DNA of 42,894 bases from Chloroflexota bacterium. GTDB lineage: Bacteria; Chloroflexota; Ktedonobacteria; Ktedonobacterales; JADMIN01. This document shows positions 3,284 through 5,065 of the stretch, in pieces. The translations under genes were made by a program, and so were the position numbers. The DNA lies in assembly GCA_021814145.1 (NCBI GenBank), contig JAKAIY010000012.1, positions 1 through 42,894 on the forward strand, written 5' to 3'. The notes under the pieces were generated by a model. That model saw only the letters and a list, made by a program, of their open reading frames with translations. It was not told the origin of the DNA and did not search any database. Within the stretch, counting starts at the first letter, position 1. Every line of letters begins with the position of its first letter.

Positions 3284-4105
3284 TCAGGAAACAATCGTGG
3301 CGTAGACGCTGGAGTGCGCGTAATGGCGATAGCCTCTCGCCACCAGAGCGCGCCGTAGCGTTTGAGCCCGGGAGCTGAGTGTGCAGATGGGGATGCGGTC
3401 AGCTTCGAAGGCGGCGCGCGTAGCGCGCGCGATCAGCGCGGCGAACAGCTCTTCTGGCCGGGCTATGGAACTGGCGTGGACGCTTGCTGTCAGGCGTGGC
3501 TCTGTCAGTTCCCAGACACCCTGCGAGTAGGCGCGCAACCCGATATAGGCGACGATAGAGCCGCTATGCCGCACAACAAAAACGCCGCCACTATGCCGCG
3601 CCAGTAACGCCAGCGCGTGCGGAGCGGTCTCAACGGATTCGTCCAGGCGCTCGATCCACTCGACCCCCTGCCCCTGGTAAGGCCGGAAATTCCACAGCGC
3701 CGCATAATACACGCGCAGGCGAGGTTCGCAGCCAGGGGCCAGCGGTCTGCTCACACTCTTACGGATCAGCGTGTCCAGTTGCTCCAGTAGCGCCGGGCGA
3801 AAGAACTCTGGTGGTTTTCTCGAGCCGATGAGATCTTTGACTGGCCCTTGCAGCTCCTCCGCCAGTGACGCGATTCCAGCGGGCCCTATGTCCTGCGATC
3901 CTGGCTTCACAGGAGCAAGCAGATACACCACCTGCCGCATGCCGAATAACAATGTCGTAGGGTCGTCTTCAGAGGGAGAAACAACCGACATCCATCCTGG
4001 AGTGCGCAAATCGGGCGTGGCGCAGTTTAATACTGACGCATAGTGGCTGTCAATGCGTGATAGCGCATCGCTTTCACTTTTCACGCTCGATTTGAATCTA
4101 TTCAT
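3284..4105 (-). CDS. GNAT-like acetyltransferase domain protein
   Basis: C-terminal GNAT/FR47-like pattern: GGVFVVRHSGSIVAYIGLRAYSQGVWELTEPRLTAS...LFAALIARATRAAFEADRIPICTLSSRAQTLRRALVARGYRHYAHSSVYA. Confidence 0.55.
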   Translation of the reverse strand: MNRFKSSVKSESDALSRIDSHYASVLNCATPDLRTPGWMSVVSPSEDDPTTLLFGMRQVVYLLAPVKPGSQDIGPAGIASLAEELQGPVKDLIGSRKPPEFFRPALLEQLDTLIRKSVSRPLAPGCEPRLRVYYAALWNFRPYQGQGVEWIERLDESVETAPHALALLARHSGGVFVVRHSGSIVAYIGLRAYSQGVWELTEPRLTASVHASSIARPEELFAALIARATRAAFEADRIPICTLSSRAQTLRRALVARGYRHYAHSSVYATIVS

Positions 4106-4186
4106 AATCGCTTTCCCTGGGCCTTGAACCCCTGCTCCGAACGCCTGAGAGCCTGTTTGGAGCGGGGAGTAATCTGCGCTACATCA

Positions 4187-5065
4187 TCACGGATGCATGA
4201 ACGATGACCAGATTGGTGGCTTATCCGTGCCGGAGCGCGCGCTGGCGTCAGTCTGATCCTCAGCGGGGGATAGCGTGCGCGCCTCGGCCCGGGAGCCTGG
4301 GAGCGGCGCCCAGATGGGTGGCGCGGTGGCGACTCCAGAAAGGGGAACGTAGTCCTTATCATCGTGCGCGAGTCTGAGTGGTGTGGACGCGAGCGTCATG
4401 CCAGCGCGTCTCTGAAGTTCCACAGCGCGCCAGATCGGCGGCCTGGGCGCGCGCGCGCATACGGCTTCCTGTCCAGCGGACGCGCTCTCCAGCTGCGCCA
4501 CTTCGTGTAGCACGCTCACGTCGCGCCAGATAGGAGGCGCGACTTTAATCAATATGGCTTTGCCGGGCGCCTCCCCTGTCAGCGTTAAAGCCGTGGCGTG
4601 ACGCCCATCAAGCAGTGTTTCGACGCGGCGCCAGATAGGGGGAGCGGGCCTGCTCTCGGGCATGGTAGCGCCAGCCGGCGCGGTGAACGGGTTTCCTGAC
4701 GGCGCTTGCCTTCCTTCGGACGGGCTTTCTCCGCGCGTGAGCGTAGGGGAGAGCGGGTATGTGGTCAGGAATGGAGCGCCAGCAACCGGGGAGAAGGGAT
4801 CATGGAGAGGTGGGGCATGGCGGCTGGATGGATGGGCTGGATGGCTGCTGTTACGTGAGAAACGGGCGCCGATAATCGCGGGCGCATGAAGGGGCGCGCC
4901 TTCGCGCGCCCCTTCATGCCCCAGATTCCCCCTATAGCCGCGCGCCCGCGCGCCTGTCACGACAACCAGCGCGCCGAAGCAAACGATTGTCACTGCGACA
5001 AATCCACGCAAAGGATACATCTGCCGCACGAGATTAATAATCGTCAATACGAGTACATTTCGCAT
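4187..5065 (-). CDS. Orphan membrane-anchored protein with five PPIW motifs
   Basis: ATG at 5065 preceded by GGAAGGAAGCC; N-terminal hydrophobic helix FVAVTIVCFGALVVVTGA; PPIW codons at 4631-4642, 4526-4537, 4430-4441, 4310-4321 and 4208-4219. Confidence 0.65.
   Translation of the reverse strand: MRNVLVLTIINLVRQMYPLRGFVAVTIVCFGALVVVTGARARGYRGNLGHEGAREGAPLHAPAIIGARFSRNSSHPAHPSSRHAPPLHDPFSPVAGAPFLTTYPLSPTLTRGESPSEGRQAPSGNPFTAPAGATMPESRPAPPIWRRVETLLDGRHATALTLTGEAPGKAILIKVAPPIWRDVSVLHEVAQLESASAGQEAVCARAPRPPIWRAVELQRRAGMTLASTPLRLAHDDKDYVPLSGVATAPPIWAPLPGSRAEARTLSPAEDQTDASARSGTDKPPIWSSFMHP
4884..4919. repeat. Perfect 15-bp inverted repeat, 6-nt loop
   Basis: gcatgaaggggcgcg (4884-4898) / cgcgccccttcatgc (4905-4919), loop ccttcg; inside the PPIW-protein CDS. 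Confidence 0.85.

Follow-up and report, generated by a model that had tools for sequence, protein, structure and literature searches.

Short proline- or tryptophan-containing motifs are well established as docking sites in eukaryotes, where PPxY (WW), PPG[WILFM] (GYF) and W-x-x-L LIR motifs lie in disordered tails and are often multivalent. To our knowledge, only a few short-linear-motif systems have been described in bacteria. Among these, the chemoreceptors offer the closest described case, since their C-terminal pentapeptide NWETF (xZxxZ, where Z is F, W or Y), which binds CheR and CheB, is carried on an unstructured linker of approximately 35 residues and binds CheR at approximately 2 µM (PMC7390727). 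Here we describe a gene from a Chloroflexota bacterium, contained in a window of 42,894 nucleotides (the whole stretch of DNA that was analysed), whose product combines one N-terminal membrane helix with five copies of the tetrapeptide PPIW. Our data indicate that this motif array is real, selected, and lineage-specific.

The PPIW array of the window protein

The gene encoding the PPIW-array protein occupies positions 4187 to 5065 on the reverse strand and specifies 292 amino acids, starting at an ATG (position 5065) with the Shine-Dalgarno-like sequence GGAAGGA on its 5' side. Translation of this frame yields the five PPIW copies that an earlier note on this DNA had listed, at intervals of 35, 32, 40, and 34 residues. 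The first four are APPIWRRV (PPIW at amino acids 142-145, positions 4631 to 4642), APPIWRDV (177-180, positions 4526 to 4537), RPPIWRAV (209-212, positions 4430 to 4441), and APPIWAPL (249-252, positions 4310 to 4321), while the fifth starts at amino acid 283 and runs into the C-terminus as PPIWSSFMHP (positions 4190 to 4219), all on the reverse strand. All five tryptophans of the protein lie inside PPIW. We found that sequences of the same composition contain 0.003 PPIW copies on average when shuffled, and two at most in 100,000 shuffles, compared to the five observed. From copy 1 to copy 5 the motif is encoded by CCC CCT ATC TGG, CCT CCT ATC TGG, CCG CCG ATC TGG, CCA CCC ATC TGG, and CCA CCA ATC TGG, such that variation among copies is restricted to the wobble positions of the two proline codons, with all four bases present at each. 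The sequences between the copies are as dissimilar as had been described, their mutual similarity being that of shuffled spacers (score sum of 178 versus a null mean of 177.4), which argues that the array is not a remnant of tandem duplication. Together, the shuffle counts, the wobble-only changes, and the unrelated spacers indicate that the array arose neither by chance nor by recent duplication.

The codon usage of the PPIW open reading frame is weakly coding-like, with a mean log ratio of 0.037 compared to 0.34-0.35 for two reference genes, and the adjoining conserved gene at positions 3284 to 4105 is also codon-atypical (0.071). Coding status is decided by synteny with a second species of the genus, in which the frame and the architecture are kept and show, at the level of sequence, the coding potential of the gene.

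Two features of the local DNA were also observed. Across positions 3284 to 5065, which hold the two neighbouring genes, third-position GC is 0.66, compared to approximately 0.78-0.85 in most other genes. Within the PPIW coding sequence, positions 4881 to 4922 form a very strong hairpin with 19-nt arms and a 4-nt loop (-47.2 kcal/mol and z = -7.2 for the region 4870-4935), which is present once in the genome, was not found in either of two other genomes of the genus, and has no T-run on its 3' side on either strand.

A syntenic relative keeps the motifs

We compared the window's own genome (G000) with two genomes of the same genus (G001 and G002). In G001, an open reading frame of 288 amino acids (L083:2065-2931) lies directly upstream of, and on the same strand as, the orthologue of the window gene at positions 3284 to 4105. 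It has a ribosome-binding site (AGAGGAGG) before its ATG and encodes an N-terminal membrane helix followed by a Pro/Ala-rich body. This body contains four P-[I/V/M]-W motifs (HAPMWNRS, APPVWRSL, HTPVWQSR, and APPIWSSY) with their tryptophans 32, 36, and 41 residues apart; shuffling produced at most three P[IVLM]W in 20,000 trials, versus the four present. The two proteins are best conserved at their C-termini, which are nearly the same (PPIWSSFMHP in the window protein and PPIWSSYLRPE in G001).

Local alignment of the two bodies gave a score of 94, which was reached by 1 of 1,000 shuffles, and when the motifs were masked (PPIW in the window protein and P-[IVM]-W in the relative) the score was 41, reached by 561 of 1,000. 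Since the likeness of the bodies is confined to the motifs, the conserved unit is the looser P-Phi-W. Furthermore, three of the four G001 copies carry GTC (Val) or ATG (Met) in place of ATC (Ile). These changes break the DNA motif and keep a hydrophobic residue, which argues for constraint on the peptide, with P-hydrophobic-W rather than PPIW as its minimal unit. As far as two sequences can show, the motifs and their rough spacing persist while the linkers, and with them the remaining body, have diverged beyond recognition.

These comparisons refine several claims of the earlier note. Its case for selection on the peptide, which had been built on the wobble-only variation, is supported over selection on the DNA by that variation and, with greater force, by the orthologue in G001. 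The peptide is invariant, as had been proposed, within the window protein; across the two species it relaxes to a common core of P-[I/V/M]-W, the C-terminal copy being the single one that reads PPIW in both. Similarly, the protein can be called an orphan with respect to family databases and not with respect to synteny, given its divergent orthologue in G001.

The array was found in two genomes

Searches of the window protein against Pfam, NCBIfam, PHROGs, phages, plasmids, and PDB sequences returned nothing of note, so that the family search of the 292-residue product suggested earlier provides no named family that would explain PPIW. A search of the literature for 'PPIW' found nothing relevant. 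In protein and profile searches of 61 and 47 related genomes, only G000 and G001 were recovered, the other matches being low-score fragments, some of them with stops. The 47 genomes of the profile search belong to the order, and the G001 match came from a profile built with the G001 sequence. Neither the array nor its GNAT neighbour was seen in G002, which at 79% completeness makes their absence uninformative.

We also ran motif patterns that required C-ending Ile or Val codons and bounded gaps, and that a looser array elsewhere could therefore escape. Three copies of PP[IV]W, sought in the contigs of the genome collection, and three copies of PPIW, sought in viral contigs, matched in frame almost exclusively within tandem or low-complexity repeats, with no match like the PPIW gene. 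Across 400 genomes of the phylum, a three-copy P[IV]W pattern matched G000 and scattered or simple-repeat sequences (frame not checked for each); it missed G001 because one gap there measures 114 bases versus the limit of 113. A two-copy pattern gave no further convincing array within the family. The scan of related genomes that had been called for thus recovered one relaxed array beside a GNAT gene, in G001, and no comparable array elsewhere.

Membrane anchoring and a proposed docking role

The N-terminal hydrophobic helix noticed earlier is confirmed by two approaches and covers amino acids 1-42 (positions 4940 to 5065, reverse strand). The most hydrophobic stretch of 19 residues (21-39) has a Kyte-Doolittle mean of 2.3, and an AlphaFold model built from two sequences contains a confident helix at residues 2-42 only, with a pLDDT of 75-82 over the first 40 residues and lower than 50 for most of the remaining residues. 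The two bodies have slightly positive FoldIndex values (+0.09 in the window protein and +0.10 in G001), which do not class the tail as unfolded, so that its disorder is no more than putative.

We favour, with a probability of roughly 55%, the reading that the protein is a lineage-specific, single-pass, membrane-tethered, and mostly disordered tail that presents multivalent docking motifs to a putative partner. The P-Phi-W core (here PPIW), often followed by x-x-hydrophobic, would serve as a short linear docking motif, and the tail, probably cytosolic and disordered, would display five of them at intervals of 32-40 residues. It might thereby bring several copies of the putative partner to the membrane, with each single site being weak. 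Multivalent docking of a PPIW-binding partner had been suggested before and is still the best reading, as the motifs outlast the spacers in G001, albeit with a motif relaxed to P-[I/V/M]-W. The locus offers a clean natural case, in that one protein holds five copies and a sister species keeps the motifs and loses everything between them.

In G001 the charge flanking the helix is -1 on the N-terminal side and +4 on the C-terminal side, and by the positive-inside rule the tail would lie inside, in the cytosol; this prediction is clear only in the G001 relative, the flanks of the window protein being equal (+3/+3). If the helix were instead a signal anchor, the tail would lie outside and P-Phi-W might bind cell-wall or surface components. 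A Pro/Ala-rich tail behind one N-terminal helix and the equal charges of the window protein agree with such an extracytoplasmic protein, while the charges in G001 predict the opposite, and we regard it as unlikely but deserving serious attention.

The docking reading also has to be weighed against a protein that is functionally idle, diverges rapidly within its lineage, and bears an array with no partner. Its narrow range of two genomes, the rapid turnover of its spacers, and its atypical codon usage would all be expected of such a protein. However, the motifs were kept with conservative changes while the spacers were erased, which is hard to explain without selection, and idleness therefore appears quite improbable.

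A multi-core precursor, the other role that the earlier note had offered, would make the PPIW segments the cores of a processed or Trp-modified (RiPP-like) peptide. This would account for the repetition of short Trp-containing segments in one protein, and several cores would fit the spacing of 32-40 residues. Nevertheless, the N-terminus is a membrane helix and not a leader, the spacers are not conserved and contain no shared cleavage or recognition sequence, and the motif is loosened to P-[IVM]-W in G001. Furthermore, Pfam detected no peptide-modifying enzyme among the main, larger open reading frames of the window, a set that covers glycerol and dihydroxyacetone metabolism, DUF3090, DUF6909, ferritin, and others. 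A precursor is thus disfavoured, and we consider it very unlikely.

We further asked whether CCAGATNGGNGG might act as a DNA or RNA element, either a nucleic-acid binding motif or a hairpin, given that the core ATCTGG is the same in all five copies, that copy 2 bears a perfect GTCGCGCC/GGCGCGAC inverted repeat, and that GCGCC...GGCGC inverted contexts surround some copies. This is highly improbable, since variation occurs only at fourfold-degenerate codon positions, the change from ATC to GTC or ATG in G001 breaks the DNA motif and retains a hydrophobic residue before the tryptophan, and the 400 phylum genomes hold only scattered or simple-repeat pattern matches beyond the PPIW gene. Finally, a relic of PRiA4_ORF3-type domains (PF07929), whose N-terminal strand KPPIWRRV is the one octapeptide of likeness and which otherwise form a folded domain with nothing else in common, is scarcely credible: a PRiA4_ORF3 protein of the same genome (L012:1285-2013) carries KPPIWRRVQ and aligns with a pairwise score of 50 (0 of 1,000 shuffles), but the similarity is gone when PPIW is masked (296 of 1,000 shuffles), no Pfam PRiA4_ORF3 match appears in the window protein even at E = 10, and the copies lie 32-40 residues apart versus a domain of 173 positions, so that homology is refuted by the masked comparison and convergence or chance remain.

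The neighbouring GNAT-fold gene

The next gene downstream of the PPIW gene (positions 3284 to 4105, reverse strand) encodes a GNAT-fold protein of 273 amino acids. This PPIW-type neighbourhood is kept in G001, where the orthologue is 49% identical, and relatives of the gene occur in several genera. The model of the product has a pLDDT of 84, and its top PDB matches in a structure search are GNAT acetyltransferases (probability 1.00, with TM of only approximately 0.3-0.5). Pfam GNAT profiles match the relatives in G004, G005, G006, and G013, mostly below the curated cut-off, and do not match the proteins of G000 and G001. In family relatives outside the genus, the CoA-loop motif reads RGHGLA in G004 and G005, RGHALG in G006, and RGRGLA in G013, while the corresponding site reads RPEELF and RPEELL in G000 and G001, respectively, with a six-residue insertion and loss of the canonical-loop glycine. 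Judged from its sequence, the product is a candidate non-catalytic acetyltransferase.

Loss of the loop coincides with a P-Phi-W tail gene upstream in G000 and G001, and no such gene lies upstream of the GNAT homologues in G004-G008 and G013 within the sequence available; the copy in G010 is truncated by the contig end. Since the G008 protein also departs from the motif (PDEGLA), without a tail gene upstream, and since the tail carriers form one clade, the correlation between loop and tail is suggestive only. With regard to gene order, the GNAT gene of G008 (L156, 1351-4351) adjoins two others, namely a pyruvate dehydrogenase E2-like gene and a DoxX-like membrane gene. In G001 (L083, 439-3888) the position of the latter is taken by the P-Phi-W gene, which is flanked by the E2-like gene and the GNAT gene; these are putative names, assigned from sequence.

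If the tail is a docking array, the adjacent GNAT-fold protein would be the first candidate for its partner, a pairing that we put forward tentatively and judge to be doubtful. The broader proposal, that P-Phi-W arrays on a tether recruit a loop-less, non-catalytic GNAT-fold reader and so constitute an undescribed bacterial docking code that arose within one genus, would be a long shot.

Comparison with known docking systems

The window protein resembles the CheR tether of chemoreceptors in placing a short aromatic motif on a seemingly unstructured tether of a membrane protein, with a motif spacing similar to the length of the chemoreceptor linker (approximately 35 residues). Furthermore, its last copy, IWSSF (IWSSY in G001), has a W-x-x-[FY] shape, as does NWETF, in which Trp is the second residue and Phe the fifth. 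The two systems differ in copy number, which is five here and one in chemoreceptors, and in position, since MHP comes after IWSSF, and LRPE after IWSSY, such that neither protein ends in xZxxZ. The window protein has no MCP signalling domain and no Pfam family, and its motif is P-P-hydrophobic-W with no acidic trend, in contrast to the acidic CheR consensus. CheR is present in G000 and G002 and not in G001, and its occurrence does not track that of the arrays, which G000 and G001 carry. Given these differences from chemoreceptors, the CheR tether serves only as an analogy. We know of no bacterial reader for PPIW, and the likeness to the proline-rich and tryptophan docking motifs of eukaryotes is likewise one of analogy.
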